From: Candidatus Saccharibacteria bacterium GW2011_GWC2_48_9
GTDB lineage: Bacteria; Patescibacteriota; Saccharimonadia; Saccharimonadales; Saccharimonadaceae
DNA: 52,484 nt
Direction: 5' to 3'
Assembly (NCBI GenBank): GCA_001003725.1
Contig: LCPR01000002.1
Coordinates: forward strand, 1-52,484
The translations under genes were made by a program, and so were the position numbers. Of this stretch, positions 19,142 to 33,522 are shown piece by piece (the stretch's first letter is position 1; each line of letters begins with the position of its first letter). Below the pieces are notes generated by a model that searched no databases, was not told the DNA's origin, and saw only the letters and a list, made by a program, of their open reading frames with translations.

Positions 19142-19234
19142 CTAAGGCTTCGTAAACAAAACAAATGCCCATACGCACGCACATAAGACTACAAGTGTTA
19201 CGATGAGTAGTCTGAAAAATATTCTTCTTCTCAT
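19142..19234 (-). CDS. 30-residue single-span membrane peptide
   Basis: Short frame that begins seven bases after the stop of the DsbA-like gene. It opens with Met-Arg-Arg-Arg, followed by about 22 hydrophobic residues including two cysteines, and ends Thr-Lys-Pro. The layout is a positive-inside membrane peptide. Its place at the end of the operon supports expression. The function is unknown. Confidence 0.45.
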   Translation of the reverse strand: MRRRIFFRLLIVTLVVLCACVWAFVLFTKP

Positions 19235-19241
19235 GCGCTGA

Positions 19242-19883: not shown

Positions 19884-19907
19884 GATTAGCCTTTCAATTA
19901 TTATAAG

Positions 19908-20549
19908 TTATGCTTTTAAAAAGCTGAGAGCTTTTTTATATTGCTTCTCGCTCTGATCCCGAAGTTCAGCTGTTTCGGTCTTACTTGCATTAGCTCCATT
20001 TGTCTGTACTAGCAGCAAAAAGCCTTCATGATGAGCAGCCATTAAAGATTTGTACTTAACTTCAAGCTCTTGGGCAGTCAGCTGACCAAGTGATGACATA
20101 TCTTCTGCTGTAGCAAAGCCAATATCCGAGTAATATCCATCATGCTCGTCGGAGCGCGGGAAACTAGATAGCTCTCTATATGATTCTTTCCATCCATCAA
20201 GCAAAGTCTTGTATCGGTTTACTTCACTCTCGAGTAGGTTAGACCTTTCTTGGGCCCATTCGCTTAGTGCAGTGTCCGCAGACTTTGATTTCAACATAGC
20301 AGACATTTCTATTGCCTGCTGGTTATAAAGAATTGCTTTTCGAGAAAAATCTATATCGTAAAGATCACCATAATCTGTTGCCAGCGAATCTTTGGAACTT
20401 TGCTGAGAAGCATGTCCAGGGGGATGTACGGTTTCTTCTTTCTGGGAATCAGGATTATTATTTAATACTGCGTATGTTGCAAAGCCTACACTACTTATAA
20501 CGACGATGACGATTAGCCCGTAGACAAGATACTTCTTGTTTTTTAGCAT
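19908..20549 (-). CDS. DUF305-like membrane-anchored protein
   Basis: 213 residues with an N-terminal anchor (residues 7-29), a His-containing linker, then a helical domain. D-F-S-R-K-A near residue 67 and A-A-H-H-E-G near residue 171 resemble the DUF305 ferritin-like fold, some members of which bind copper. The match is partial. Operon position next to CmtR, the cation exporter and DsbA supports a metal-binding role outside the membrane (inference). Confidence 0.65.
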   Translation of the reverse strand: MLKNKKYLVYGLIVIVVISSVGFATYAVLNNNPDSQKEETVHPPGHASQQSSKDSLATDYGDLYDIDFSRKAILYNQQAIEMSAMLKSKSADTALSEWAQERSNLLESEVNRYKTLLDGWKESYRELSSFPRSDEHDGYYSDIGFATAEDMSSLGQLTAQELEVKYKSLMAAHHEGFLLLVQTNGANASKTETAELRDQSEKQYKKALSFLKA

Positions 20550-20605
20550 GCCAAGCTACCTTTCTTGTCTAAACTTGATATTATCTGTATGTAAATAATA
20601 TCGGC

Positions 20606-20962
20606 TCAAAAGCGTAGCGTGGAGCAAGAAAGAAATAACTGATTGCGCAGTGGTATATATTTTTCATCGTATCGAGTACTTAAGTAGAGTAGCGCAAGCG
20701 GTACAGCAGCTAGTGTCCACATGAGAACTGGAGGAATAGGTTCTTTTTTATCCTGTTCTGGCAGTCGCGAATTTTGCGCTTGCTCTGCCTGAGTATGAGG
20801 CTGGCATGCAGCGCTGCATAATGAGCTCACCGGAGCCATATTTGTGTGAACTATACTTTCAAAGTTACATACAAAAATAACTGTAAGAACCAGGAGATAT
20901 GCAGTAAGTTTGCCGGCATTTCCTGTTAAATATTGTGCTGTCCGCTTGAATTCAATAAACAT
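20606..20962 (-). CDS. Small membrane protein of the metal operon
   Basis: 118 residues with two hydrophobic segments (about 18-33 and 78-96). Between them is a polar loop holding two cysteines (C-S-A-A-C) and a His. No domain is recognised. The Cys/His loop and operon context suggest an accessory metal protein, similar in layout to small proteins near copper or cadmium systems (inference). Confidence 0.55.
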   Translation of the reverse strand: MFIEFKRTAQYLTGNAGKLTAYLLVLTVIFVCNFESIVHTNMAPVSSLCSAACQPHTQAEQAQNSRLPEQDKKEPIPPVLMWTLAAVPLALLYLSTRYDEKYIPLRNQLFLSCSTLRF

Positions 20963-21044
20963 ATTCAGTATTCATTATAGCAAAGGTGCGTCGCATCACT
21001 GCATCTCGCGACAGCTAAGTTTACACCTAACATTGCTTAAACAA

Positions 21045-21713
21045 TTATTTATCTATTTCGAATAATAACTCCGTCGAGCTGCAGTTATCACCTTTCCAAG
21101 CTTCAATGCCTTCACGGGCAGCCAGACCTGCAATAAAAAGTGCTGCAAGTGAGTCAGCCCACCACCAACCGAGCACACTGTTTGCAACTAACCCGACGAG
21201 TAGTACACCCGACATATACGTACAGAGCAACGTCTGCTTGGAATCAGCAATAGCTGAATGCGAACCAAGTTCTTCTCCCGTTTTCCGCTGCGCCAGTGAC
21301 ACACCCGGCATAATAAGAAGGCTAAGTACCGCAATGATTATACCAATAAAGGATGATTCAGGAACATCCTGCCTAATTAAACTTATGATTGCGTCAAAGC
21401 TGACAAATGCCGCTAATCCAAAAAATGAAAAGGCAATAATTCTAAGTGCAATTTTTTCTCGCTCTTCATGTTTGTTTCCTGAGAATTGCCATGCTACTGC
21501 CAATGCTGATGATACTTCGATAACCGAATCAAGTCCAAAGCCGATTAATGCACTTGAACCGGACATGTTGCCCGCTATCAATGCAAGAGCTGCCTCGACA
21601 ACATTATAGCTAATAGTAAATATCACCAAAAATCGGATACGCCTTATCAGCTTAAAACGAGTTGCGCTACTAAGCTTAGGGCGACTATTGTGCTCGTGAC
21701 CATGCTCACTCAT
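21045..21713 (-). CDS. Cation efflux protein (CDF-like cadmium/zinc exporter)
   Basis: 222 residues with an N-terminal His-rich stretch and about six membrane segments. TM2 carries G-L-D-S-V-I-E, the acidic CDF site, and A-D-S-K-Q-T-L-L-C-T-Y lies at the equivalent of TM5, as in the short cation transporters often paired with CmtR-type repressors. The typical C-terminal cytoplasmic domain is absent. The start is adjacent to the cmtR-like stop, so the two are coupled. The likely substrate is a soft divalent metal such as Cd or Pb, judged from the regulator. Confidence 0.82.
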   Translation of the reverse strand: MSEHGHEHNSRPKLSSATRFKLIRRIRFLVIFTISYNVVEAALALIAGNMSGSSALIGFGLDSVIEVSSALAVAWQFSGNKHEEREKIALRIIAFSFFGLAAFVSFDAIISLIRQDVPESSFIGIIIAVLSLLIMPGVSLAQRKTGEELGSHSAIADSKQTLLCTYMSGVLLVGLVANSVLGWWWADSLAALFIAGLAAREGIEAWKGDNCSSTELLFEIDK

Positions 21714-22037
21714 CTAGCAACAGTCCTTCGTTTCTGCCTCGTCACAAGCAGCAGGGTCACTGATTAGCACAACCTCTTTCAGATCATTCAACGCATGTCT
21801 AACTCGCTCACTAGATAGTTCGTATCTGGTTTTGCGGCCTTCTTGTATGGCAATCACTAGGCCGCAGCCCTTTAGACACGCTAAGTGGTTCGATACCGAT
21901 TGCTTGCTTACGTTGAGCTCGAGAACCATTTCGCCAGGATATCTAGGACTATCTCGAAGCAATTCAAGCATTTGTAATCTTGTTTCGTCAGAGAGAGCAT
22001 GCCCAAATCTAGCAAGAGGAGATACTATAGAAGTCAT
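21714..22037 (-). CDS. ArsR/SmtB-family metal sensor, CmtR type
   Basis: 107-residue winged-helix repressor. The recognition helix region is V-S-K-Q-S-V-S-N-H-L-A-C-L. Cys54 and Cys58 (C-L-K-G-C) plus Cys98 reproduce the spacing of the Cd/Pb site of mycobacterial CmtR (Cys57, Cys61, Cys102). A tail ending in Cys-Cys is extra. It is the first gene of a six-gene minus-strand operon, and a perfect palindrome covers its promoter. A TACTAT -10 lies eight bases before the start, inside that palindrome. Confidence 0.88.
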   Translation of the reverse strand: MTSIVSPLARFGHALSDETRLQMLELLRDSPRYPGEMVLELNVSKQSVSNHLACLKGCGLVIAIQEGRKTRYELSSERVRHALNDLKEVVLISDPAACDEAETKDCC

Positions 22038-22045
22038 ATAAGCAT

Positions 22046-22069
22046 ATAGTACATCGAACTATGTACTAT
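22046..22069. promoter_or_regulatory. Operator palindrome of the CmtR operon
   Basis: Perfect 9-bp arms ATAGTACAT and ATGTACTAT separated by six bases. It overlaps the predicted -10 box of the cmtR-like gene, so repressor binding would block transcription. Confidence 0.75.
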
Positions 22070-22172
22070 TGTAAAGATAATCTATTAGATATACGTAATT
22101 TAGACATGCTTACGTTAAATTTACCAGATAGACTATCTACATGGCTCCATATGAGATAAAATAGATGAAACC

Positions 22173-22634
22173 ATGAAAAAACAAACAATTAAAATTACTT
22201 CATTAGACTTGAAACTTATTGAATTTTTCAAACGAACCTTTGTACCAGTAGCACGGTTTTCAATATTTTTAATATTTTTCTGGTTCGGCCTTATTAAGCT
22301 ACTCGGCCTGAGCCCCGCTAGTCCGCTAGCCGAAGCCCTAACTGCCCGTACAGTTGGCATGCAGTATTTTGATTTGCTATTTTACGGTCTTGCCTTAGTT
22401 GAATGTGTAATAGGCATACTATTCATATTCCCCAAATTTACACGCATAGTAATTCCTCTACTACTTTTTCATATGGTACTTGTGTGCTCGCCAATATTGC
22501 TCGTGCCCGAAATGGTATGGCAGCAATTTGCGGTACCTACCCTTGAAGGCCAGTACATAATCAAGAATGCAGTTGTCATAGCTGTTGCAATTGGTATTGC
22601 AGCTTCTGCTAAGCCGCTAACTCATCGAGGATAA
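22173..22634 (+). CDS. DoxX/DUF417-like membrane protein
   Basis: 153 residues with four hydrophobic segments. F-F-W-F-G-L-I-K-L-L-G-L-S-P-A-S-P-L-A near residues 38-56 resembles the DoxX/DUF417 (YkgB-like) membrane family. The role is uncertain. It is divergent from the metal operon and has a TAAAAT box ten bases before the ATG. The first 52-base repeat follows 12 bases after its stop, which makes it possibly the first unit of the repeat array. Confidence 0.65.
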   Translation: MKKQTIKITSLDLKLIEFFKRTFVPVARFSIFLIFFWFGLIKLLGLSPASPLAEALTARTVGMQYFDLLFYGLALVECVIGILFIFPKFTRIVIPLLLFHMVLVCSPILLVPEMVWQQFAVPTLEGQYIIKNAVVIAVAIGIAASAKPLTHRG

Positions 22635-22645
22635 CTTGCTAAACT

Positions 22646-22697
22646 AGTTCTAATTTCAGCTATAATGCCGTACCATTTCTATGGCACATCGAAATTA
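22646..22697 (+). repeat. 52-base hairpin repeat, copy 1
   Basis: Starts AGTTCTAATTTC, ends CATCGAAATTA. Outer arms TAATTTC/GAAATTA; inner arms GTACCAT/ATGGCAC with one mismatch around a TTCT loop; a 12-base left internal loop contains TATAAT against three bases on the right. Complete copy. Confidence 0.85.
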
Positions 22698-22742
22698 AGC
22701 AATTCAGGCCAATAGACAGAATTATGCAGTATTAAGCAATTT

Positions 22743-22769
22743 GGTTCTTATTTCAGCTATAATGTAGCC
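22743..22769 (+). repeat. 52-base repeat, 5' half copy fused to a start codon
   Basis: GGTTCTTATTTCAGCTATAAT matches the left half of the repeat (the C-A-G-C-T-A-T-A-A-T stretch is as in copy 1), then breaks off at the ATG at 22770. Its TATAAT becomes a leaderless-type -10 for that gene. Confidence 0.75.
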
Positions 22770-23138
22770 ATGCGACTCTACCTCACTCATTCGACCAGCT
22801 ACGATTACAAAAATGAGCTGTACGAACCACTTAAGCAAACCCTTGGCAAAGAATATGATATTTTTCTCCCCCATGAGGAACATAGCGAAGGTGTGAAATC
22901 AAAAGATATTATTTCAGAGTGTGATATTGTCTTGGCCGAAGTTTCACAACCTTCTACAGGCCAAGGAATAGAACTTGGATGGGCAGATTCTAACAACAAG
23001 CCAATCATTTGTTTTTACCGAACAGGATCTAAAGTTTCAAGTGCACTTCGTTTTATAACAAATAATCATATCGACTACGAATCCAGTAGTGACATGATTA
23101 AAAAACTTTACATCGAAATTGAACATTTAACCAACTAA
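22770..23138 (+). CDS. Nucleoside 2-deoxyribosyltransferase-like protein
   Basis: 122-residue Rossmann-like protein of the nucleoside 2-deoxyribosyltransferase superfamily. C-D-I-V-L-A-E-V-S near residue 51 and G-Q-G-I-E-L-G-W-A near residue 65 give the conserved Asp and the catalytic-type Glu. Members cleave or exchange the base of deoxynucleosides or nucleotides. Six bases separate the TATAAT at 22758-22763 from the ATG, so the message is probably leaderless. A repeat copy begins three bases after the stop. Confidence 0.75.
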   Translation: MRLYLTHSTSYDYKNELYEPLKQTLGKEYDIFLPHEEHSEGVKSKDIISECDIVLAEVSQPSTGQGIELGWADSNNKPIICFYRTGSKVSSALRFITNNHIDYESSSDMIKKLYIEIEHLTN

Positions 23139-23141
23139 TTC

Positions 23142-23183
23142 AGTTCTAATTTCAAATATAACGCCGTACCAAATTCGAAATTA
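23142..23183 (+). repeat. 52-base repeat, copy 2 with internal hairpin deletion
   Basis: AGTTCTAATTTC ... CGAAATTA with both outer arms intact but only 42 bases: about ten bases of the inner hairpin (loop and right arm) are missing. Slippage across the hairpin would give this. Confidence 0.85.
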
Positions 23184-23334
23184 TTTATATACATCCGTTC
23201 ATTCTTGCCCTCTGTGACATCGGCATATCCATTAAAAGTCGGATCTTTCTTGCTATAATCGAATCACGAATAACAGTGACGTTTTTGGTGTAATTCGGAG
23301 TAATAATCAGAGCGATTACCTATTCCGTGTTTCT

Positions 23335-23724
23335 ATGAAAGTATTGGTAGTAAATACCAATGGTGATATTCTTGTCGTAAAAGAATCAGGCCTTGATTGG
23401 TGGAATATGCCAGATGGCGGCATGGAGCATGGCGAAACAATCAAAGATGCGATCGCTCGCGAATTACATGAAGAAATTTCTCTGAATTGTGACTTTAAAT
23501 ATGAAGTGATTTCTGTCGAGGATCCGCACCTCTTACGACGCGTCAAAGCTTGGCAAATGCGAATCATCTTTATTGTACGACCACAGGATGAAACTTTCGC
23601 TCCGGGCGATGACGGTGACGAGATAGTATTTATGAAACCTGAGTACTTTCAAGAATCAGACGCCACTAACGAGCAGGAAATTTATCAATACTGGCAGATT
23701 GCTAAAAGTCGCCATATAATTTAA
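23335..23724 (+). CDS. Nudix hydrolase
   Basis: 129 residues. The Nudix box runs from about residue 28 to 50 as G-G-M-E-H-G-E-T ... A-R-E-L-H-E-E-I-S-L, with the metal-binding R-E-x-x-E-E intact. It hydrolyses a nucleoside diphosphate linked to some group; the substrate is not readable from sequence. It lies between two repeat copies as a single-gene unit. Together with the deoxyribosyltransferase-like and HAM1-like genes nearby, it adds to a local cluster of nucleotide-acting enzymes. Confidence 0.85.
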   Translation: MKVLVVNTNGDILVVKESGLDWWNMPDGGMEHGETIKDAIARELHEEISLNCDFKYEVISVEDPHLLRRVKAWQMRIIFIVRPQDETFAPGDDGDEIVFMKPEYFQESDATNEQEIYQYWQIAKSRHII

Positions 23725-23752
23725 TTTTAACTTTGCATATCATAGTGCCGTA
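23721..23752 (+). repeat. 52-base repeat, degenerate half copy
   Basis: TTAATTTTAACTTTGCATAT followed by CATAGTGCCGTA partly matches the left half of the repeat (T-A-A-T-T-T-C ... T-A-T-A-A-T-G-C-C-G-T-A). It overlaps the Nudix stop codon. A weak match. Confidence 0.45.
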
Positions 23753-23908
23753 GAGAGTAGTATGTAATATTTTTGATTTTTCCAAGAATAAAGCTTGGAA
23801 TCTTGAAACATATTCAATATCTATGTGGTCAAACCCGTTCCAAGCACCTAATTTATTTCTCATTCGCAACTCAACTTTACATGAAGACATGCAGTGAAGT
23901 TGCCATGT

Positions 23909-23914
23909 TATAAT
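23909..23914 (+). promoter_or_regulatory. -10 box of HAM1-like gene, leaderless spacing
   Basis: TATAAT, six bases, ATG at 23921. This fixes the start codon over the upstream in-frame ATG at 23894, which would lie before the promoter. Confidence 0.7.
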
Positions 23915-23920
23915 AATAAA

Positions 23921-24472
23921 ATGAAACAAGTACACTTACTGACAGGTAATCTCGGGAAAATAAAAGCTGCAAACCATATCTTCAACAAATACGGTATTGA
24001 GGTGCATCCCCTAGCGCTTGATATACCGGAAATTCAAGCCGATACAAGCCTTGATGTAGCAGTAGATATGGTAAAGAAAGCTTTTAACCTGACTGGCAAG
24101 GCCGTAATACGTGAAGACCATAGTTTTTACATCGATGAATTGGGGATTCCCGGGCCGTTTATGGCGTATGTAGACAAACGCGTAAGTACCGACTCACTGC
24201 TAAAGATTCTCAATACGTTAAGTTCTCGAACCGGATATTTCGAACTGTCCGCAGCATTTGCCGATGAGGATGGCAAGGTGAGCGAATTCAGCTACAAGGT
24301 ACCTATTGAATTCGCGTTGGAGCCAAAAGGAGATGAGAGCCAGAGATGGGAACGACTGATTAAATTTCCAAATGACACTAAGGTATTTGCAGAATATAAT
24401 GAGTCAGAGCGAGTTTCTACGTGGTCGAAAAACTACGAACAAATTGCTCAGATGATATCAATCTCCAACTAA
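23921..24472 (+). CDS. HAM1/RdgB-like non-canonical nucleoside triphosphate pyrophosphatase
   Basis: 183 residues. T-G-N-L-G-K-I-K-A at residues 8-16 is the ITPase signature, and R-E-D-H-S-F-Y-I-D-E-L-G near residue 64 matches the family D-x-S-x-L-x-V-D-x-L region (His replaces one usual residue). Such enzymes convert damaged or unusual NTPs to NMPs. Its last four bases overlap the convergent P-loop kinase gene, so the two share an end. It may clear modified nucleotides linked to the neighbouring operon (inference). Confidence 0.82.
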   Translation: MKQVHLLTGNLGKIKAANHIFNKYGIEVHPLALDIPEIQADTSLDVAVDMVKKAFNLTGKAVIREDHSFYIDELGIPGPFMAYVDKRVSTDSLLKILNTLSSRTGYFELSAAFADEDGKVSEFSYKVPIEFALEPKGDESQRWERLIKFPNDTKVFAEYNESERVSTWSKNYEQIAQMISISN

Positions 24473-25173
24473 GTGCGTGTCGTCCAGCCATTTAACTTTG
24501 AGCCGACCGCATGTACGCCCTCGTCAAAACTACCGTCATTGAGAACGTACCAATCCGCATGATCGGCCAATTCATCCAAACCCATTGCACTATCCCTATC
24601 AAGTAATCTTTGAAATTCACTTCGATCAAGACTTTTATTCTCCCTCATGCAGTATCTCTGATATAGCAGTTCTTTCGGAGCGTCAATATAGAGAACCTTT
24701 GAATCGTCCGGAGCAAGGACTGCCCCTAGACGCTCCACTCCGCTATATGACCTATTACCGATTACAACGATGTCATGCTGTTCATGAGCTTCATTTGCTA
24801 GCGATGCTTCAATATGACCCGCAAGTAGATCATTCGTAAAATTGTTTCCGTAATGCTCCTCGTGCATTTCAATCCATGGACCAAAATCCATACTCGGCCC
24901 ATCGGCTGTGTGATAGCTACGCAGCACAGGTCCAGTGTCAACAAACCTGTATAAATCACCTATCATTGCGGCTTTTGCTAAAGCGCTTTTACCGGAAGCG
25001 TGAGGACCAACTACAAATAGCGTCTTTTTAATTTCGGCCCGAGGGACGTCATCTATGGCATGACGCACTAGATTGGTAAGTGTTGGAATATTACCGTTAT
25101 CCATCGAGCCAAATAGACTTAGCTCACTTTTTGGAAGCAATACTTCATTTCGAGTACTTTTAGTTTCGCTCAT
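24469..25173 (-). CDS. P-loop kinase, nucleotide or small-molecule kinase-like
   Basis: 234 residues. Walker A G-P-H-A-S-G-K-S lies at residues 56-63. D-T-G-P-V-L-R-S-Y-H near residue 78 recalls the substrate strand of NMP and cytidylate kinases. A lid-like segment with several Arg residues (Q-R-Y-C-M-R-E-N-K ... R-L-L-D-R-D) lies near residues 167-190. The family is not one I can name; a phosphotransfer role is likely. It overlaps the upstream GHMP kinase by 14 bases and is the third gene of a coupled operon. Confidence 0.7.
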   Translation of the reverse strand: MSETKSTRNEVLLPKSELSLFGSMDNGNIPTLTNLVRHAIDDVPRAEIKKTLFVVGPHASGKSALAKAAMIGDLYRFVDTGPVLRSYHTADGPSMDFGPWIEMHEEHYGNNFTNDLLAGHIEASLANEAHEQHDIVVIGNRSYSGVERLGAVLAPDDSKVLYIDAPKELLYQRYCMRENKSLDRSEFQRLLDRDSAMGLDELADHADWYVLNDGSFDEGVHAVGSKLNGWTTRT

Positions 25174-26251
25174 TTAAAATATATGCTCCGTTATGGATTT
25201 TGGTAACGTAGGTATTCATTCCCAATGATTTGAATCGATCCTCTAAGTACTCAACATCGTTGGTAATTCCAAAAAAGGCAGGACCAACCGATGACAGTGA
25301 TAGAATTTCAATTCTATCATCATCACGCAGATCCCTAAGCGCTTCAGCTATCTCAATCATTTTTGGATATACAAAAGAGCAATTTTCGATACTCCCCATA
25401 TTCCAGCGATAGTCAAATATTAAATCTTTCATTGGCTTCAGATTATTATTCACTAAACCAGGCAGAGCTTCATGAACTAGACGGTAGGCGATATCGGGTC
25501 CATACGCCTCGCCCGCCTCCCTGAAACCGTTGATGTTGTCAACCTCAGCATTCATTAACTCTGTTGAGTCTGGGTGGTTGAAGTCAGAAGGTATACCGAT
25601 CACAACTCGAGTAGTTTCGGGTAATATGTAAGTCGTAATTGGAGTTGCTTGACCAGCGAGTACGACTAGTCCACCATCAAAATGCCCACACACCCCCGAT
25701 CCTCCAATACACTGAACTGGGACTAGTATGCTGTCGTCTGAGTCTACTTCTTCTCCGTGATTCTGAGCGCAATACCTGACCAGATCCTGAGGTGCCATAG
25801 GAGCACCAAAAAGCTCGTTAATGGCAGCTGCCGTACCCGCGATGAGCGAACTACTAGACCCGAGGCCACAGTGACGGAGATTGACAGGATCATCGACATC
25901 AATAATCAGACCAAAGTCTAAGTTTAATGCCTGGCGCATCAGCAATGCAGCATGCCGTATTAATCCTTTGCGAGGAGTTCGCTCTGATATCGTGATTTCT
26001 TTCGACTCCAAATCGAGGGTAACTTTAATCTTTTTGTATAACGCAACACAAAAATCCACTTGACCCGCCTCGTAGATAAGATTGTTATTGTCTGCGATTT
26101 TCGCTGGGTCTAGCGCCATTGCCTCTAGCCTAGAGGGATATGAAATTTCAACGTGAGAATAAGGCCGTCCTACCTCTCCGCTATCTACTGCGGAATTAAA
26201 AATAGTGCCAACCTTAAAACTTTTAAAATCTGTCTTATGCATCTCCCTCAC
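25160..26251 (-). CDS. GHMP-superfamily kinase
   Basis: 363 residues. The ATP-binding GHMP motif H-C-G-L-G-S-S-S-S-L-I-A-G lies at residues 127-139, and a C-terminal L-S-S-V-G-P-A-F-F-G glycine motif lies near residue 325. The fold covers galacto-, homoserine, mevalonate and threonine kinases and the beta-RFAP synthases; the substrate here cannot be assigned. The overall pattern is closest to the beta-RFAP synthase/threonine kinase side (impression only). It overlaps both neighbours by about 15 bases, so it is tightly coupled to the dioxygenase-like and P-loop kinase genes. Confidence 0.78.
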   Translation of the reverse strand: MREMHKTDFKSFKVGTIFNSAVDSGEVGRPYSHVEISYPSRLEAMALDPAKIADNNNLIYEAGQVDFCVALYKKIKVTLDLESKEITISERTPRKGLIRHAALLMRQALNLDFGLIIDVDDPVNLRHCGLGSSSSLIAGTAAAINELFGAPMAPQDLVRYCAQNHGEEVDSDDSILVPVQCIGGSGVCGHFDGGLVVLAGQATPITTYILPETTRVVIGIPSDFNHPDSTELMNAEVDNINGFREAGEAYGPDIAYRLVHEALPGLVNNNLKPMKDLIFDYRWNMGSIENCSFVYPKMIEIAEALRDLRDDDRIEILSLSSVGPAFFGITNDVEYLEDRFKSLGMNTYVTKIHNGAYILNERN

Positions 26252-27290
26252 CTGTAGCTCTTAATATTGATTCTTCTGTCTTGGATATTAGTACATCCAA
26301 TATATCCGGTGTATAGGATCCACTACCTACGGCACCTTTTTTTCTTATATTAAAATTCCCTTTTGCGACCCTTCTATGTGGGTAGCGAAACTTCTTTATT
26401 TTTCTTAAAAGCGAAACAGTCTCTTGTCGCATCTGTGGATATTCATCTGGGTGACTTTCGAGCCACTCGACTAATGTAGTCTGGCTGTTGCGTGTTAGAA
26501 AATGGCCCAGAGATTCTTTCTGGGTAGGTGTTAAATATTCGTAGTTTTCATTGAAAAACCCTTGGTATTCAGGATCAGTTTCATTATTTCCCCAAAGGAC
26601 TCGGTCGATTGCGAGTAGCTGCATCTGCGCACCTCCAGCTCCTGTAAATTTCCGCCCACCGATCACAAGCGGCTCAAAATATGGACGCATCTGTTCGGAA
26701 AAAAACTCTGGAGTAATTGTATGGTATACATTAATTATTGAAGCTATCATAGTATCCATCGCTGCCGCCGATGTCGTCAGTGCCTCTGCCATTCCCTCGT
26801 CATCATACATAGACTTGTCACTCAGTGATGTAAGTGCAAGATCCAAGGCCAAGGTGCCGTTGCGCACAGAGTCAATAAACAATGCCTCCTCAGTCGTCCC
26901 CGTAAACGATCGCATACGCTCATCTAACGGATTGATAGATGCATATGTAAACACTGTTCCTCTTGGTATTGTGCCAGCTACATTACCCAGCCGCATCAAT
27001 TCACCCTCAAGGCCATCGACCGACTGCAACGGCTGTGCACCATGTCGCAATAATGAGCTTGCCAAGAAATCTAAGTCCCTCAGTGCGGCAAGAGCGTCTT
27101 CCTGCGAGACTACATTATATTGCGATGTGCACACCACCTCGCTAAGGACAGTGTTAATTGATTCCACGTCCTGTCTTCTATTCAGTTCTGGGAGAAGTAT
27201 CATTATTTCGTCAAGTGAAAGCGGGTCAAGCTCTGCAATGTCGTGATACGTGAAGCTTTCTCTGGATAGCGGTATAGATTCGATACTCAT
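26235..27290 (-). CDS. IDO/TDO-superfamily haem protein (PrnB-like dioxygenase)
   Basis: 351 residues. The C-terminal half has the landmarks of indoleamine 2,3-dioxygenase and the PrnB (monodechloroaminopyrrolnitrin synthase) family: R-P-Y-F-E-P at 202-207, F-T-G-A-G-G-A-Q at 215-222 with a following L-x-A-I-D-x-x-L, a candidate proximal haem ligand His305 in F-R-Y-P-H-R-R-V-A, and a G-S-G-S-Y-T-P loop at 322-328 where IDO has its GTGGT loop. The likely reaction is oxidation of an indole or aryl substrate using haem and oxygen (inference). It is the first gene of a three-gene coupled operon. The assignment is from motif recall, not a search. Confidence 0.7.
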   Translation of the reverse strand: MSIESIPLSRESFTYHDIAELDPLSLDEIMILLPELNRRQDVESINTVLSEVVCTSQYNVVSQEDALAALRDLDFLASSLLRHGAQPLQSVDGLEGELMRLGNVAGTIPRGTVFTYASINPLDERMRSFTGTTEEALFIDSVRNGTLALDLALTSLSDKSMYDDEGMAEALTTSAAAMDTMIASIINVYHTITPEFFSEQMRPYFEPLVIGGRKFTGAGGAQMQLLAIDRVLWGNNETDPEYQGFFNENYEYLTPTQKESLGHFLTRNSQTTLVEWLESHPDEYPQMRQETVSLLRKIKKFRYPHRRVAKGNFNIRKKGAVGSGSYTPDILDVLISKTEESILRATGEGDA

Positions 27291-27307
27291 TCTACGCTTT
27301 CTGTAAT

Positions 27308-27326
27308 TGTTATGCGTTGCATAACA
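27308..27326. promoter_or_regulatory. Palindrome upstream of the dioxygenase-kinase operon
   Basis: Perfect 8-bp arms TGTTATGC and GCATAACA around a three-base centre, 18 bases before the start codon at 27290. No T-run follows, so an operator is more likely than a terminator. The upstream gene encodes a ribbon-helix-helix protein that could bind it. Confidence 0.6.
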
Positions 27327-27380
27327 GGTCTGATTTTTAAAATGGTATCATTCAAAGAATAGTATGTCAATGTTTATCTA

Positions 27381-27911
27381 TTACTTCCAATCATTAATCG
27401 ATTGGTGCAGAATTTGACGGATCAGCTCACCCTTGGATATACCTTCCAGCTTCGCACGTTCGGATAAATAGTTATCAATTTCTATTGTGCTCATGAAGCT
27501 GGTTCGTGTCGATTGCATTTGCCTATGAGCATATTCCATAAATTCATCGATTACCGTTGAAATATTGGAGGAGGTATAACTCTTAATCCTTAGATTCCTA
27601 GACGGTATATTACCAATTAATCCTTTTGGCTGCCCCTTATTTTCTTTACTGTAAAGGTACAGACAAGGTTTCGTCGCGTTCAACGCAAAAGACAACTGGA
27701 ACCCTAACGTCTGACTCGATCGGCTCATCTCACCAATAAAAATATCAGCATTTGATATCTCTTCAACAAGCTTATCGAAGGGGTATGTGTCATTTGGCTC
27801 ATTAAATACATGGTCGTAGTGAAACACATGATATTTTTCACGTAAGTACTCTACGATAAAATCTGGGTCGGTATCATCTTTTCTACTTGAAGATGCGTAG
27901 AATACATTCAT
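27381..27911 (-). CDS. Deoxyribosyltransferase-fold / ribbon-helix-helix fusion, probable ligand-sensing regulator
   Basis: 176 residues. Residues 1-130 have the nucleoside 2-deoxyribosyltransferase fold (A-D-I-F-I-G-E-M-S near 55, L-G-F-Q-L-S-F-A near 69, K-P-C-L-Y-L-Y). At the position of the catalytic Glu there is Gln72, so catalysis is doubtful. Residues 137-175 look like a ribbon-helix-helix DNA-binding domain: the strand F-M-S-T-I-E-I-D, a helix, then G-I-S-K-G-E-L-I-R-Q-I-L. This suggests a nucleotide- or nucleoside-sensing repressor of itself and the operon 90 bases downstream. TATAGT lies seven bases before the ATG. Confidence 0.75.
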   Translation of the reverse strand: MNVFYASSSRKDDTDPDFIVEYLREKYHVFHYDHVFNEPNDTYPFDKLVEEISNADIFIGEMSRSSQTLGFQLSFALNATKPCLYLYSKENKGQPKGLIGNIPSRNLRIKSYTSSNISTVIDEFMEYAHRQMQSTRTSFMSTIEIDNYLSERAKLEGISKGELIRQILHQSINDWK

Positions 27912-27918
27912 TCTACAT

Positions 27919-27938
27919 ACTATATACGTTAATTAACG
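27919..27938 (-). promoter_or_regulatory. -10 box and palindrome before the fusion regulator
   Basis: TATAGT (minus strand, 27919-27924) sits seven bases before the ATG at 27911. Right upstream is the perfect 12-base palindrome CGTTAATTAACG (27927-27938). It shares GTTA/TAAC arms with the palindrome at 27308, so autoregulation is plausible. Confidence 0.5.
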
Positions 27939-28073
27939 CAATGTCAAGGTATATACCGTAAGGATCAACCCTCTTGGCTACAGATAACAGTACTAACTCT
28001 GTCCAAACAGTACACCAAAGCACAAGAATTACAAGGAAGAATTCTTTGGAAGTCTTTTTGTTTAGCAAAAGAA

Positions 28074-28645
28074 TGATTAATATCATTAACTTCTCCGACG
28101 AATCTTTTGAGTCGCGGTTTGTACTGTCAATTGAAGAGACTTACACTGAAGCATCAAACTGTTGGACAAACTGCCAGAAATAATCGACATAAAGTTCACA
28201 GACAATGGCGGTAGTGATATCACTGGCCTTTTCTAGGAATCAAGTTAATGTCGCCGTCCTTAAGAATTATAGTGATAGCCTAAAACAGGAACGAAATCCG
28301 TATAGCGCAGTATTCCATGAGTTCTTCCATATTCAGCAGGTCTTTACTTTCACCGACCCACCATCTACCAACCATAGGCTGCAATTGACGAGGGGTGTGC
28401 GGTAAACTTCGAACCAACGTATGCAAAAACTCATCAGAATATGGGTACCATACTGATATATCAGATACATACTAAAAATGGCCTGGCGAGATACTATATG
28501 TCAGAAATGAATATTTCGAAAAGGAAGATGTTTGGCATACATGGGCATTTTATCACCCTAAATACAGCCAAAGATGGATAGTCTACAAGGTCGGCACTTG
28601 GGTGATAGTAAAATTCTCAATGAGAGGAATATTGATATTTTAGAC
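28074..28645 (+). pseudogene. Decayed Zn-metalloprotease (DUF2268-like)
   Basis: Reading across frames gives one broken protein: F-E-S-R-F-V-L-S-I-E-E-T, then L-L-D-K-L-P-E-I-I-D-I-K-F-T-D-N-G-G (28165-28220), then Q-V-N-V-A-V-L-K and F-H-E-F-F-H-I-Q-Q (28240-28340), an HExxH zinc site. D-E-G-C-A-V-N-F-E follows in another frame near 28390, and an aromatic-rich tail ends near 28645. The order HExxH then E-G-x-A-x-x-F-E fits DUF2268-type proteases. At least three frameshifts or stops make it inactive. A repeat copy follows at 28685, as after intact genes. Confidence 0.6.
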
Positions 28646-28684
28646 CTAAAGGAAAAAGGTCAAACGAGATTATAGAGCTAATTC

Positions 28685-28736
28685 AGTTCTAACTTCGCGA
28701 ATCACGCTGTACCATTTCTATGGCACATCGAAATTA
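28685..28736 (+). repeat. 52-base hairpin repeat, copy 4
   Basis: AGTTCTAACTTC ... GTACCATTTCTATGGCACAT ... GAAATTA, full length, with one mismatch in the outer stem. The left internal loop no longer carries TATAAT. Confidence 0.85.
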
Positions 28737-28857
28737 TATTATCGTAACATACTTCTTAAATTCACCGCTAAATAGCATCGATTACGTGTCTTCTCTAAAA
28801 GGTACTTCTCGGATATGATATATCTATGGACAGTCAAATCTTTAGTTTAGGTATCCA

Positions 28858-29625
28858 ATGAAACAAAAAATAATTATATTTGGTGCTTATTTATTATTAA
28901 GCACAAGTGTTATTCTTATTGCTGTTCAACTAGTACACCCTGATGCAGATCTTCACAAGCAGATTACAGCAACAACAGAGCAGGACTTCATGAGGAGATA
29001 TCTCAAAGACAAATATGGCCATGAATTTACCATAAAACGCATAACCACGACTGAAGATAAGCGCGGGATTGAGGTAGTCGAAGCATACGCAATTCGGAAA
29101 GATTCTCAAAACACTACAGACAGCTTTAAGATCCAACGAAATAAAAACAGCAATACGTATCGTGACAACTTTCCTGAGCGCTATTATTTACTTTCCGAGC
29201 AAGCTAGAGTAAGTGAACTAGTAAGCTCGATCACAAACAAAGAAGTAAAAGGAGGTGCTACATTCTCTCTTCAAAACAGTGATTTTTCTAAAATCAAAGC
29301 ACCCCTGCCATCTTTTAAGTCTTTTAGCGGTACTCAGCAGTCCGACTCCATCCACTATAAAATTAACCTTGTGTCTGTAAACCAACAAACAACCAAAGAG
29401 AGCTTGAACAGACACGCAGCGCACCTATATAAAATTTGGCAAAATGTTGATGTTAATGCAGATGCATCCAGTCTTCACGGAGCATATATGGTACGCAGAG
29501 ACAAAGAAACTGATGGTGAAATCAAAGCGTCAGATTTAATCTGCTACTTCGACGAAGAACTCATGTCAACAATAAATGACCCGACACAGCTTGTATCATG
29601 CTTCAAGGTAAAGGGGTCTCTGTAA
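28858..29625 (+). CDS. Membrane-anchored hypothetical protein
   Basis: 255 residues with an N-terminal signal anchor (residues 5-25) and a soluble, largely polar exterior domain with two cysteines near the C terminus. No family is recognised. It is followed two bases later by a multi-span membrane protein and then an I78-like inhibitor; the three lie between two repeat copies and so form one multi-gene unit. No ribosome binding site is obvious. Confidence 0.65.
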   Translation: MKQKIIIFGAYLLLSTSVILIAVQLVHPDADLHKQITATTEQDFMRRYLKDKYGHEFTIKRITTTEDKRGIEVVEAYAIRKDSQNTTDSFKIQRNKNSNTYRDNFPERYYLLSEQARVSELVSSITNKEVKGGATFSLQNSDFSKIKAPLPSFKSFSGTQQSDSIHYKINLVSVNQQTTKESLNRHAAHLYKIWQNVDVNADASSLHGAYMVRRDKETDGEIKASDLICYFDEELMSTINDPTQLVSCFKVKGSL

Positions 29626-29626
29626 T

Positions 29627-30226
29627 ATGGCAGGTCATGATGACAATTCTCGTATAAAAGTTGGTACTACTATCATATTTGCTGGCGCTATAGTCTTCGT
29701 GTATGCATGCACATTCGCGATCATCCAAAAAGTATTTCCAAACTGGCAGTATCTGGGCGTATGTTCGTTACTCTTACTTACAGGAATCGCGGTACATCGT
29801 AACTATGCGTTCGCAGGGATCCTGTATTCGGTCAGCGGACTCGTAAGTATCATAATCGCAGCCGGTATAGCACTCACCTACGGCATGCTGTTGGCGAATC
29901 CATTTTTTATCGTCCCTCTATTGCTCAGCCCTCTACTCTTATTACACCGTATTGCAACAGTTGCTCTTCCTATCTTCTTTGCAGCATATCTAATTCGAAG
30001 CGAGCATCTAATCATAAAGAAAAAGAACCAGGTAATGCCTGAAGGTAGTGTTAATAACAAAGGATTCGATATCTTTAGTTGGATAAGTTCAATAAACGAA
30101 AGCATCAAAAAAACACTTCTATCGTCAAAAGGCCCTAGATTTAATTCAACCAACTTAGCAGTGATTTTACTGATAGGTGTCGTTACTGTTGTAATCGCCT
30201 ATTCTATCCTAAAGTCGTATCAATAA
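29627..30226 (+). CDS. Multi-span membrane protein, hypothetical
   Basis: 199 residues with about five hydrophobic segments: near 18-36, 43-56, 63-84, 90-122 (two spans) and the C-terminal 180-197. There is a positively charged loop after the fourth. No family is recognised. The two-base spacing from the preceding anchored protein implies co-translation and perhaps a complex. Confidence 0.7.
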   Translation: MAGHDDNSRIKVGTTIIFAGAIVFVYACTFAIIQKVFPNWQYLGVCSLLLLTGIAVHRNYAFAGILYSVSGLVSIIIAAGIALTYGMLLANPFFIVPLLLSPLLLLHRIATVALPIFFAAYLIRSEHLIIKKKNQVMPEGSVNNKGFDIFSWISSINESIKKTLLSSKGPRFNSTNLAVILLIGVVTVVIAYSILKSYQ

Positions 30227-30264
30227 TATATTATTTAAACTACAACAAGCATAAGAAAAATACC

Positions 30265-30576
30265 ATGAAACAATCCAAAACGAAAAGATTTCAAATCACG
30301 AAATCAGCTTATGCAATCATTGCACTGGCAGTTCTACTTACCGGACTAGCGTGCCTTATTTTGTTCTCCTCAGCTGCAAATCAAGATGCACAAAAGCAAT
30401 TGCCTACATACGTTGGCTTGACCGAGTCGGAAGCTAAAACCAAGGCTAAAAAAGATGGTCTTATATATCGTGATGTAAGTCCTGAAAATTCCGGAGCATT
30501 AACTGGTGATTTTAGGTCTGATCGGGTTAACGTCACTATTCAAGATGGTATTGTACGGAAAGCAGAAGAAGACTGA
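30265..30576 (+). CDS. Membrane-anchored I78-like peptidase inhibitor
   Basis: 103 residues. One membrane segment (residues 16-36) is followed by a small exterior domain with G-L-T-E-S-E-A near residue 54 and the pattern G-D-F-R-S-D-R-V-N-V-T-I-Q-D-G-I-V near residues 82-98. This resembles the I78 (elastase-inhibitor-like) family D-[FY]-R-x-D-R-x-N-x-x-x-D core. It may protect against secreted proteases (inference from family). It is the last gene of a three-gene unit. Confidence 0.6.
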   Translation: MKQSKTKRFQITKSAYAIIALAVLLTGLACLILFSSAANQDAQKQLPTYVGLTESEAKTKAKKDGLIYRDVSPENSGALTGDFRSDRVNVTIQDGIVRKAEED

Positions 30577-30610
30577 CAGCTAAGTTATACAGGAAAGTCG
30601 GCCGACCTAA

Positions 30611-30687
30611 TCACAAATTTCCGCTATACACTAACACATAAGACATCAAACAATACGACACACCGTCTCTATGACACATCGAAATTA
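30611..30687 (+). repeat. 52-base repeat, copy 5 split by an insertion
   Basis: The left part AATTTCCGCTATA (30616-30628) and the right part CACCGTCTCTATGACACATC plus GAAATTA (30661-30687) are separated by about 30 unrelated bases. The CCAT arm is damaged. Confidence 0.6.
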
Positions 30688-30711
30688 TTTTATATCTGCT
30701 ACTATTAACGT

Positions 30712-31044
30712 ATGAATAAGATGACAAAAACAAAAAAAGTGCTATCAACTAAAACACTCGTAATAGCGTCTATGGTCATGTCGCTACTTGCACTATTATC
30801 TTTGCTTCTAATATACTTAACTCCACTATCGCCTGAAATGCCGGCAATTGCAGACTGCGGCGGCGGCTACTCTAGGTCGGCAGACGGACTAGTAGTGGTT
30901 GAAGAAACGGACGCACGGTGCATAATAAATGACGGAAGGCGACCTGACGGAGACACGATACATTTGATTGGCATAATTGTCGGCGGCATTAGTGCTATAT
31001 TAAATTTTGCCTTTCTCATCACAATTTTAAGAAGAAGTTTGTAG
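30712..31044 (+). CDS. Two-span membrane protein, hypothetical
   Basis: 110 residues with hydrophobic segments near 17-38 and 84-106. The exterior loop between them holds two cysteines and several Asp. No family is recognised. TACTAT lies six bases before the ATG, so the message is probably leaderless. It is flanked by repeat copies 5 and 6 as a single-gene unit. Confidence 0.6.
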   Translation: MNKMTKTKKVLSTKTLVIASMVMSLLALLSLLLIYLTPLSPEMPAIADCGGGYSRSADGLVVVEETDARCIINDGRRPDGDTIHLIGIIVGGISAILNFAFLITILRRSL

Positions 31045-31068
31045 CTAGCACTTATATTCGATTATTTT

Positions 31069-31120
31069 AGCTTTAATTTCGGATATAGTGCCGTACCATT
31101 TCCATGACACATCGAAATTA
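31069..31120 (+). repeat. 52-base hairpin repeat, copy 6
   Basis: AGCTTTAATTTC ... GTACCATTTCCATGACACAT ... GAAATTA. The outer stem is perfect; the inner right arm has changed. Confidence 0.85.
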
Positions 31121-31129
31121 TATCTTTGA

Positions 31130-31135
31130 TATACT
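31130..31135 (+). promoter_or_regulatory. -10 box of HIT gene, leaderless spacing
   Basis: TATACT, six bases, ATG at 31142, ten bases after repeat copy 6. Confidence 0.65.
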
Positions 31136-31141
31136 ACTCTC

Positions 31142-31603
31142 ATGCCAGATACAATTTTTGACAAACTTATCCGTGGTGAAATTGAGAGTCGTGTAGTGTG
31201 GCAAGATGAGAAGCACATGGCTTTTCTTACTCCTTATCCGAACACACCCGGCCTTACTGTAGTCATCCCAAAAACTAATCTTAGCGACTATGTGTTCGCT
31301 CTTGAAGACAATGACTACGCAGAGCTACTGCTTGCGACAAGGAAAGTAGCGAAGTTACTTGAAAAGGCGCTTGATGTTTCAAGGGTTGCATTAGTTTTTG
31401 AGGGGACGGGGGTTGCCTATGTTCACGCAAAACTCTACCCGCTTCATGGACCGATAGCCAGCCAGACTGATGTCTGGAGCGAAACTACAGAGTTTGTAGA
31501 AGAATATCGCGGATGGCTCACAACCCTCGAAGGACCAAAAATGAGCGATGAGCAACTCGACAAAATCCAATCAGGTATCATTGCTGCTCAACAATCTTCG
31601 TGA
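31142..31603 (+). CDS. HIT-domain protein with altered histidine triad
   Basis: 153 residues. The N-terminal pattern (I-F-D-K-L-I-R-G-E-I-E-S, then P-G-L-T-V-V-I-P-K) is that of HIT hydrolases, which act on nucleoside phosphoramidates and dinucleoside polyphosphates. The triad region reads V-A-Y-V-H-A-K-L-Y-P (residues 91-100): the central catalytic His95 remains, but the flanking triad positions are Tyr93 and Lys97. Activity or specificity is probably changed. Single-gene unit between repeats 6 and 7. Confidence 0.85.
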   Translation: MPDTIFDKLIRGEIESRVVWQDEKHMAFLTPYPNTPGLTVVIPKTNLSDYVFALEDNDYAELLLATRKVAKLLEKALDVSRVALVFEGTGVAYVHAKLYPLHGPIASQTDVWSETTEFVEEYRGWLTTLEGPKMSDEQLDKIQSGIIAAQQSS

Positions 31604-31607
31604 CTCT

Positions 31608-31659
31608 AGTTCTTATTTCATATATGACGCTGTACCATTTCTATAGCACATCAAAACTA
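31608..31659 (+). repeat. 52-base hairpin repeat, copy 7
   Basis: AGTTCTTATTTC ... GTACCATTTCTATAGCACAT ... AAAACTA. Full length with a diverged right outer arm. It begins four bases after the HIT stop. Confidence 0.8.
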
Positions 31660-31724
31660 TTGTGAATTTGTAAGGTTAATTCTAATGTAGATCTAAATGC
31701 TTAAGCCGAGACAAATCTAACTTA

Positions 31725-32618
31725 ATGATATGGTGTATAATCGTATTCAGCATGATACTCGGCCCCGATTTTGTAACTGCTTTAATCATAGGATTAATTA
31801 TCACATTTGTCTCTGTGGCTATGCCGATAATTTTGAGTATGGCTTTTTTTATATACACTATTGTAAATAGAAAAAGATTAGCAAAAACGTTCAACTCATC
31901 TGTCATATTTTCCTCTGCTAGTATAGTTGCTAGTATCGCACCTCTATTCGTTTTTGATCTAGCGAGCAATGAAGGTGCATACTTATACGTATATTTTGGC
32001 GCAGTTGCCGATCTCGCCATAATCACAGCATGGCGAGCATCCATGAGACACACACTACACGGCAGAAAGCGTATTATACTAATGAGTATTTTGATTACGT
32101 TTTCGTTGGTGTCAATTGCTCAACCCTTTCAATTACGCAGCGAACGATTGACTGATCGTGCGAATAGAATTAATGACTATACTGCACTCCTAGAATCTTA
32201 TAATCTTAAATATCTTCTGCCGGCAGGCACGAATCAAAGTGCATTTAGCCTGAATGTCGCTGAAGACAGCTACCCATTCTTGTCTAGTCATACAGATGAG
32301 GTAATGGACACCTACTTCGTACACTTAGATGAAGCAAAAAAAGCTGGCTACGACAATAGCTCATGTATAATATTCTCTAGCCTAGGAAACCAGTACCCAC
32401 TCAAACCTGGTCAACGCCAATATCCTTGCGTAGATAGTAGAATTGGCGACTTAACAGTCTGGACGCAGGCTGTAGAATACCCGTCAACTTATAACATAGT
32501 CTACGGAAACACCTTGATCATTCTTGAAGACAGCGGGCTAGAACGCGATGAACTAATCGAGTACATTAAGGACTTTAGGTCGGCTACATCGCGCGATGTC
32601 GCAAATTACATATGGTAA
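31725..32618 (+). CDS. Membrane protein with exterior domain, hypothetical
   Basis: 297 residues. About four hydrophobic segments lie in the first 130 residues, followed by a soluble C-terminal domain of about 165 residues with two cysteines. No family is recognised. Single-gene unit between repeat copies 7 and 8. Confidence 0.6.
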   Translation: MIWCIIVFSMILGPDFVTALIIGLIITFVSVAMPIILSMAFFIYTIVNRKRLAKTFNSSVIFSSASIVASIAPLFVFDLASNEGAYLYVYFGAVADLAIITAWRASMRHTLHGRKRIILMSILITFSLVSIAQPFQLRSERLTDRANRINDYTALLESYNLKYLLPAGTNQSAFSLNVAEDSYPFLSSHTDEVMDTYFVHLDEAKKAGYDNSSCIIFSSLGNQYPLKPGQRQYPCVDSRIGDLTVWTQAVEYPSTYNIVYGNTLIILEDSGLERDELIEYIKDFRSATSRDVANYIW

Positions 32619-32696
32619 ACGGCAGATTACAAGCACTAAAACATTGATAATGTGTAACCAAGTAGATAGGCAGAGCTAAATCGAATTAAGCAAATT

Positions 32697-32748
32697 AGTT
32701 CTTATTTCACACATAACGACGTACCATTTCTATGGCACATCGAAATTA
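32697..32748 (+). repeat. 52-base hairpin repeat, copy 8
   Basis: AGTTCTTATTTC ... GTACCATTTCTATGGCACAT ... GAAATTA. It is preceded by AATTAAGCAA, also seen beside copy 1 and the half copy, so the conserved unit may extend about ten bases to the left. Confidence 0.85.
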
Positions 32749-32833
32749 TTATTTACATCTGCTATCTTTGATATTAAAAGCTTGATAGCAAACAGCTTTT
32801 GGTTACATGCACGAGTGCTCTTTATTATTTAGC

Positions 32834-33154
32834 TTATAGTAGCCAGTTTAACAAAAACAAACCTGTGAATATAAAGACTAAAGACATTACTCCGCACATG
32901 ACTTTAAATGTATTATTCGGCTCCGTGAATACCACTATCGCGTTGAAGATCGCAGCTACGAGAAAAAACGGGACTAGCAGCATCATTATTACTGACAGCA
33001 ATAAGCCCCAAGCAAGCAAACCCATATTGCCATCGCTAGATTCGCTGACATGAGATACATATAGAATTAAAATCCCGAACAGCACGGCAATCAGAATGGC
33101 AATCGCTGAGAATATAAGGGTCTTTCGTGTAGAGGACTTAATTCTTCTAAGCAT
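32834..33154 (-). CDS. Small membrane protein, hypothetical, opposite orientation
   Basis: 106 residues with three or four hydrophobic segments and a basic N terminus. No family is recognised. It is the only gene of the repeat array on the minus strand, although the flanking repeats keep their orientation. Confidence 0.5.
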   Translation of the reverse strand: MLRRIKSSTRKTLIFSAIAILIAVLFGILILYVSHVSESSDGNMGLLAWGLLLSVIMMLLVPFFLVAAIFNAIVVFTEPNNTFKVMCGVMSLVFIFTGLFLLNWLL

Positions 33155-33233
33155 AACTGGTTAGCAGTATACCATCGACTTACATAGATGACTAGGCGCA
33201 TAGAGATAAGCATCACCCCTGCATCATTAATTT

Positions 33234-33285
33234 AGTTCTTAGCACATATATAATACCGTACCATTTCTATGGCACATCGAAATTA
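33234..33285 (+). repeat. 52-base hairpin repeat, copy 9
   Basis: AGTTCTTAGCAC ... ACCGTACCATTTCTATGGCA ... GAAATTA. Full length with a diverged left outer arm. It is the last copy seen. Confidence 0.85.
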
Positions 33286-33327
33286 TCTATACTATTCTTA
33301 TCTATATATGACTTAGAGGAAAAAGTA

Positions 33328-33522
33328 GTGCAAAAATATACATCTACCGAAAAAGATGGAAAGACGTTCACTCATCATGGCGGTACTACGGCAGGCTTCA
33401 GTACCATGACCATGCTTGACAGAGAAAACGGAAAAGCAGTCGTGCTGCTCACAAACCGTTCACTTGGATGGGAGCATATTCCGGCAGCAGAAGAAATTCT
33501 GAATACGCTCGAACAGCAATAG
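33328..33522 (+). pseudogene. C-terminal fragment of a beta-lactamase-family serine hydrolase
   Basis: 64 residues from a GTG with GAGGAAAAA upstream. F-T-H-H-G-G-T-T-A-G-F-S-T near residue 14 is the class C-type H-x-G motif region, and the sequence then follows the family strand (M-L-D-R-E-N-G-K-A-V-V-L-L-T-N-R-S). The catalytic S-x-x-K and Y-x-N parts are absent, so it is a remnant, though it could still be translated. It has a repeat before it and a terminator, not a repeat, after it. Confidence 0.7.

Follow-up and report, generated by a model that had tools for sequence, protein, structure and literature searches.

Arrays of cassettes, in which single genes are stored and shuffled, are known mainly from integrons, where they rely on one tyrosine-integrase lineage and on folded attC sites. 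A 52,484-nucleotide stretch of the Candidatus Saccharibacteria bacterium GW2011_GWC2_48_9 genome (LCPR01000002.1, positions 1–52,484, hereafter the window; host genome 1,067,676 bases in total, 1.07 Mb) raises the question of what has built the array that it carries, in which a 52-base repeat punctuates small, unrelated genes. From sequence comparison, we put at roughly 75% the probability that this is a tRNA-anchored, integron-like array of gene cassettes, that a large serine recombinase (LSR) inserts such small cassettes at tRNA 3′ ends, and that the conserved core of the repeat is a tRNA-mimicking attachment (att) half-site.

The repeat is a conserved core followed by a variable leader

Direct-repeat and pattern searches found six 52-base copies that align without gaps (starting at 22646, 28685, 31069, 31608, 32697 and 33234), together with a shortened copy (23141), a decayed copy (near 30635) and two relics (22742 and 23722), all on the + strand. 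A sequence-only reading of the window had counted about ten copies in one orientation, six of them exactly 52 bases long, and this array is real. It had also placed the copies closely 3′ of stop codons, which holds for most of them, and had noted the absence of the RYYYAAC/GTTRRRY boxes of attC cores, which the sites indeed lack. Across the whole genome, a pattern allowing up to three mismatches gave six matches and a covariance model, a search which that reading had proposed, gave seven. All lie in this array, and neither method found a match on the opposite strand of the 1,067,676 bases; the repeat is confined to the array and not scattered. Shuffled windows yielded ~0.05 matches per window, even at a much lower threshold.

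The 52-mer had been taken as a single unit. Comparison with relatives instead resolved it into two parts, a 30-nt core, [AG]GTTCTAAYTTC-N13-G[TC]ACCA, which is the conserved portion (read from relatives, at ~30 nt, as RGTTCTAAYTTCRYACATARYGCYG[TC]ACCA), and a ~24-nt leader that belongs to the next unit. The core is constant in relatives, while the leader is one of several classes (TTTCTATGGYGCATAGAAATTATT; AATCTCGTTAACAGAT...; TAGTGCTTATG... with a terminator; and others), some of which hold terminators and −10-like boxes. The core resembles the 3′ part of a tRNA, with GGTTCYAAY like the T-arm, followed by the last 6–9 nt of the target tRNA. A TATAAT-like stretch within it had been considered as a promoter, a reading that we dropped because the stretch is not conserved in relatives. 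One leader class of ~85 nt with repeated GGTTCTAAC/AGTTCGAACC motifs occurs behind cores and tRNAs in different genera (for example G004 14961, G047b 8900 and G023 12384), and may contain accessory binding sites.

The sequence-only reading had described the repeat as a hairpin whose folding recalls attC. Single-strand folds of the window copies are erratic (z from +0.2 to −4.1), with the bottom strand folding better. Among 108 core–leader pairs from many genomes, complementarity was 6.64, as against 6.38 for shuffled sequences and 6.49 (sd 0.11) for permuted leaders. The hairpin is a property of a single leader class and does not define the repeat. The analogy with attC is unsupported, given the lack of a conserved fold and the likeness of the conserved half to the 3′ end of a tRNA. 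We dropped it on the varying folds, on complementarity hardly above shuffled, and on finding only an Xer-type tyrosine recombinase common to the array genomes.

A model of the 52-mer identified relatives, mostly clustered, in 9 of the 295 genomes of the family, including the window's own. A sequence-only model of the core matched 58 of 393 genomes of the order, in several families and often in clusters; in a sample of the phylum (n = 287), core matches were restricted to close relatives. When a degenerate core pattern was run over 84,980 species genomes, where by our own estimate ~0.1 chance matches are expected, it returned 15 stretches, 11 titled Candidatus Saccharibacteria and 4 just 'bacterium'. 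The pattern matched none of 2.9 million viral contigs, and an exact 28-mer likewise had no match in viral contigs.

In the scanned regions, 111 cores were forward and none reverse. They are spaced a median of 724 nt apart, start a median of 9.5 nt past a stop codon and number up to 12 in one scanned stretch. The open reading frame (ORF) before the core lies on the opposite strand in 21 of 110 cases, and the core therefore cannot be just a 3′ signal of a gene. The arrays are made of small cassettes in one orientation with a site at gene 3′ ends, as in integrons. Unit content differs between relatives, a comparison that had also been proposed, and homologous cassettes recur between arrays and between genera (78% identity over 603 nt for G004/G023; 82% over 684 nt for G411/G475, where the match stops precisely at the core).

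Arrays begin at the 3′ end of a tRNA gene

Across one Saccharibacteria order, the starting point of related arrays is a tRNA gene, at its 3′ CCA. In the window's family they lie between glyA–murA and clpB–murT–gatD homologues, directly behind a tRNA that is usually tRNA-Arg(TCT), which also precedes arrays in many relatives; elsewhere, arrays stand behind other Arg, Gly, Tyr or Glu tRNAs. The tRNA-Arg(TCT) of the window (13218–13293, +; identified with ARAGORN) ends in ...CCCGGGGTACCA and is the proposed anchor and target, analogous to attI or attB. The array had previously been taken to start at 22646; the repeats do span 22.6–33.3 kb, but the true start is this tRNA. Compared with other family members, G131 and G105 have the glyA–murA and clpB flanks turned round with respect to the tRNA and its array. 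Both arrays still run away from the tRNA end, which belongs to an intact tRNA in G131 and, in G105, to a 3′ tRNA fragment that an island has left.

Identical leader families are found behind the tRNA CCA in some genomes and behind cores in others. The last core tends to precede a terminator-like hairpin, as seen behind unoccupied tRNAs. A pair of same-genus genomes provides an empty site: the DNA that follows the tRNA in G065 corresponds to the DNA that follows the last core in G117, with 80.8% identity over 73 nt from the CCA block.

The tail of the core follows its anchor. The trinucleotide of the array's own anchor is present in 75 of 103 cores (35 arrays); permutation gave a mean of 46.2 and a maximum of 68, with 0 of 5000 permutations reaching 75. 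Cores behind tRNAs ending in GTACCA mostly end in GTACCA, and those behind tRNAs ending in GCACCA (tRNA-Arg of G111 and G473, tRNA-Tyr, tRNA-Gly) mostly in GCACCA. The related cassette of G411 and G475 ends in ...TATACCA behind tRNA-Arg(CCG) versus ...TGCACCA in a tRNA-Tyr array. In G101, two cores end in GCCCCACCA, which at first matched no detected tRNA; an Rfam group I intron match then revealed an intron-split tRNA with this ending beside an LSR. At L217 (2725–2990), such a group I intron-split tRNA, overlooked by ARAGORN, anchors an LSR element and two cores. The tRNA-Met(CAT) once considered as the G101 anchor was dropped, as it has its own terminator and a different tail and the true anchor is the intron-split tRNA. 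Good support for the suggestion of the sequence-only reading that this may be a different cassette system comes from the array-only repeat, an orientation that holds even around a reversed gene, unrelated content in relatives, the fixed anchor and the empty site.

Most tRNA-adjacent serine recombinase elements end in cores that match their tRNA

That reading had advised looking for a recombinase that co-occurs with the repeat, and the likely candidate is an LSR. Of 40 genomes checked, nearly all of which carry arrays, 32 contain the Recombinase domain PF07508, and many of the genes concerned adjoin a tRNA on the opposite strand. These tRNA-adjacent recombinases combine Resolvase and Recombinase domains, generally together with a Zn ribbon, and most minimal cassettes carry no recombinase. 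On the far side of tRNA-adjacent LSR elements, 14 of 21 regions contain a 30-nt core-type site with the tail of that very tRNA. The elements are thereby bounded by a tRNA end and a core with matching tail, as for the att sites of a serine integrase. A control on spacing covered the 21 regions: of 96 occurrences of the own-tRNA 6-mer, 17 have GTTC exactly 29 nt ahead of them, and no other offset accounts for more than 4; among 498 occurrences of 6-mers from other tRNAs, 4 have it at 29 nt.

The far-end tails equal those of tRNA-Pro (CGACCA, in three genomes), tRNA-Glu (TCACCA), tRNA-Gln (CAGCCA), tRNA-Lys (GGCCCTCCA), tRNA-Gly and tRNA-Leu (both GCACCA) and tRNA-Arg (GTACCA), and a terminator-like hairpin usually follows. 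Many LSRs of the order target the 3′ ends of Glu, Pro, Gln, Lys, Gly, Leu and Arg tRNAs (L221, L217, L229, L218, L227, L226, L237 and others). In the window's own genome, an intact LSR element occupies tRNA-Gln and ends in a matching CAGCCA. Intact LSRs include proteins of 549 aa (G000 contig C1, at tRNA-Gln), 603 aa (G079, at tRNA-Pro) and 532 aa (G379). In the window itself, the tRNA-Arg adjoins a broken LSR (13252–14875), and the next core is at 22645. The sequence-only reading was right that no tyrosine integrase is seen here; it had overlooked the frameshifted LSR and the anchoring tRNA-Arg.

Units come in two kinds, elements of 5–15 kb that carry an LSR and recombinase-less cassettes of ~0.4–1.5 kb that hold one or two genes. 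Each begins with its leader and ends with its 30-nt core, just past the final stop codon. In the mechanism that we propose, the LSR would join the closed site of a unit (core|leader) to a tRNA 3′ end, in or beside the common G[TC]ACCA-type block. This would leave the tRNA intact, the unit behind its CCA and the core ahead of the former downstream DNA. Further such events, at the same tRNA or at a core already in place, would produce an array, like attI and attC in an integron. Catalysis by the LSR, circular intermediates, use of the cassettes in trans and the exact crossover point are what we infer from the sequences.

Several observations weigh against this model. Far-end cores are missing from 7 of the 21 tRNA-adjacent LSR regions; that of the G131 element at tRNA-Glu was looked for and not found, and one positive region, L234, has its site within a coding-like stretch and may be due to chance. 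Most cassette arrays hold no LSR, and PF07508 had no matches in 8 of the 40 tested genomes, several of which are incomplete. The tails of 28 of the 103 cores differ from the anchor, a number that includes decayed cores and false matches, and some anchors were assigned only as the nearest upstream tRNA. The LSR of the window is frameshifted, and the leaders, presumably the other half-site, are highly diverse, which is unusual for a serine integrase. The weakest points are this leader diversity, the LSR-free arrays and the broken LSR of the window.

Alternative explanations

The main rival, partly compatible with the proposed model, is tandem accretion: many LSR elements would have entered at one tRNA and lost their recombinase genes, making the units remnants rather than purpose-made cassettes. 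The att chemistry would be the same, the window does contain relic and truncated cores and a frameshifted LSR, and an excerpt of PMC5704250 gives a precedent among integrative elements at tRNA ends. We nevertheless regard it as unlikely. Short units are the rule (median 724 nt), mostly with one or two complete genes and a core no more than ~10 nt from the stop codon; as many as 12 cores occur in one scanned stretch; and homologous cassettes are present in different arrays and genera (G004/G023, G411/G475). Less probable again is the same site-specific insertion by another enzyme, either the chromosomal Xer or a phage or plasmid tyrosine integrase acting in trans, with LSR elements just sharing the hot spots. 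Xer is present in 11 of 11 genomes tested and some array genomes have no detected LSR, but it is in LSR elements that the far-end core with matching tail occurs. The sole tyrosine-integrase island at the same tRNA, that of G105, carries a 45-nt identical tRNA duplication and not the 30-nt core. This ~10-kb island (C1, ~755–766 kb; L198/L199) sits in the same tRNA-Arg, and the duplicated tRNA 3′ end separates the array from the full tRNA; it is a separate, classical tRNA-3′-half island. A tyrosine integrase was dropped as the array enzyme, as none but Xer is common to array genomes and the G105 match near the array belongs to this island.

A true integron or an integrase-less cluster of attC sites (CALIN), with divergent attC recombined as folded single strands by a tyrosine integrase, would account for the array logic, the single orientation and the sites past stop codons, and in some other families core and leader together do look attC-like (GGTTCTRAC ... 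GTTAGAACC). We consider this very improbable. A PF00589 search found only one Xer-type tyrosine recombinase in each of G079, G004, G131, G013 and G091; there is no conserved fold or RYYYAAC/GTTRRRY pair, and complementarity hardly exceeds that of shuffled sequences. The anchor is a tRNA end with which the tail co-varies, and the tRNA anchoring already contradicts an integron. Most remote of all are transcription signals (terminators or 3′-UTR hairpins) or a hairpin family resembling miniature inverted-repeat transposable elements, the latter also raised by the sequence-only reading. The repeats come after stop codons, and some leaders have terminators and −10-like boxes. This explanation is already contradicted by an orientation that stays constant even with a gene on the other strand (21 of 110 preceding ORFs), by the absence of the repeat elsewhere in the genome, by a tail that tracks the tRNA and by the lack of a conserved fold.

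Relation to known systems

Like these arrays, integrons and CALINs consist of same-orientation units of one or two genes, with a site at the gene 3′ end, a fixed entry point and strain-variable, unrelated cargo. By contrast, the likely enzyme here is an LSR, entry is at a tRNA 3′ end, and the site is a tRNA-tail mimic that has neither a conserved hairpin nor attC boxes. We found no array-associated IntI-type integrase (PF00589), no attC and no attI beside an intI.

Staphylococcal cassette chromosome (SCC) elements use the Ccr large serine recombinases, insert at the 3′ end of rlmH/orfX, form tandem composites and carry a piece of the target end at their own ends. They resemble the Saccharibacteria arrays in recombinase class, in targeting the 3′ end of a housekeeping gene and in tandem build. 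The arrays differ in having many different tRNAs as targets and not rlmH/orfX, mostly tiny units without a recombinase, a fixed-length, 30-nt, T-arm-like half-site and another phylum as host.

The only solved-structure sequence relatives of the G379 LSR are A118-type serine integrases (PDB 6dnw and 4kis; E ~0.003, C-terminal region), a very distant relationship. A118 inserts in comK.

Integrative elements at tRNA 3′ ends and the accretion of cis-mobilizable elements (CIMEs), as portrayed in the review PMC5704250, likewise involve a tRNA 3′ target, tandem elements and decayed neighbours, and most cassettes here are tandem recombinase-less units bounded by att sites, as CIMEs are. Here, however, only 6–9 nt are common to site and target, preceded by a divergent T-arm mimic. 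According to table passages of that review, tRNA-targeted mobilizable elements use tyrosine integrases and site-specific serine ones disrupt dispensable genes, whereas many LSRs of this order target tRNA 3′ ends.

A literature search, with subscription journals and preprints outside its coverage, returned no description of this system. With less assurance than for the model itself, we lean towards an independently evolved counterpart of the integron: gene capture driven by serine integrases in Saccharibacteria, with tRNA 3′ ends as entry sites and one-gene cassettes bearing an anchor-matched, 30-nt mimic of the tRNA tail. If so, the cassette strategy would have evolved more than once, and gene gain by these tiny, dependent bacteria would be accounted for. 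The 30-nt signature would offer a ready means to find cassettes and orthogonal tRNA-directed serine integrases.

Organization of the array in the window

Behind tRNA-Arg(TCT), the C-terminal part of the LSR (Recombinase and Zn ribbon; 13252–14334, −; PF07508 1.1e-6, PF13408 1e-6) has an open frame that extends antisense into the tRNA. The N-terminal catalytic part (Resolvase; 14423–14875, −; PF00239 2.4e-18) is in a different frame, and the gene looks frameshifted. The LSR-bearing element extends ~9.4 kb from the tRNA to the first core (13294–22675, +), its right end being placed by core 1. Its cargo comprises AAA_25, AbiJ-like, DsbA-like, DUF305, cation efflux and DoxX genes, in a layout that matches G379, G079 and G369. 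The AbiJ_NTD4-like gene (17888–18820; Pfam 2.4e-5, below the cut-off) is possible phage-defence cargo, with a weak match to PADLOC PDC-S32; PADLOC gave a single weak match over ten window genes.

Core 1 (22645–22675, +), like cores 2 and 3, was found by both the covariance model and a window scan. A truncated core, recognized by sequence and preserved only in its left half (22742–22764, +), lies closely 5′ of a cassette gene for a nucleoside deoxyribosyltransferase-like protein (22770–23138, +; PF05014 1.4e-7), which core 2 follows (23141–23171, +) with a shortened leader behind it. A composite unit (23172–28714, +; Pfam and core scans) then closes with core 3 (28684–28714, +). It contains a Nudix gene (23335–23724, +), a relic core (23722, +) detected only by a truncated-model scan, a Ham1-like gene (23894–24472, +), minus-strand genes (AAA/kinase-like, GHMP kinase, PrnB-like and a 176-aa gene) and a stretch poor in open frames, with genes assigned by Pfam. 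The reversed cluster (24469–27290, −), with its AAA/kinase-like, GHMP kinase and PrnB/indoleamine-dioxygenase-like (PF08933 1.5e-30) genes, is odd cargo for a reduced genome.

The next unit (28715–30665, +) has three ORFs (28858–29625, 29627–30226 and 30265–30576) and a decayed core near 30635–30665 at its end. Four cassettes follow, all on the + strand. The first (30666–31098) consists of a leader (30666–30689), an ORF (30712–31044) and a core (31068–31098), and the second (31099–31637) of a leader (31099–31122), a HIT-domain gene (31142–31603; PF01230 1.7e-7) and a core (31607–31637). The third (31638–32726) has a leader, a membrane-protein-like ORF (31725–32618) and a core (32696–32726); in the fourth (32727–33263; core 33233–33263), the gene is reversed (32834–33154, −). 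The last leader and a C-terminal beta-lactamase fragment (33328–33522; PF00144 1.9e-5, below its cut-off) occupy 33264–33522 (+), which is probably a decayed terminal unit. Farther along, tRNA-Pro(TGG) (45505–45580, +) has a terminator-like hairpin directly 3′ and is unoccupied; in G079, of the same genus, a 6.4-kb LSR element stands at tRNA-Pro.

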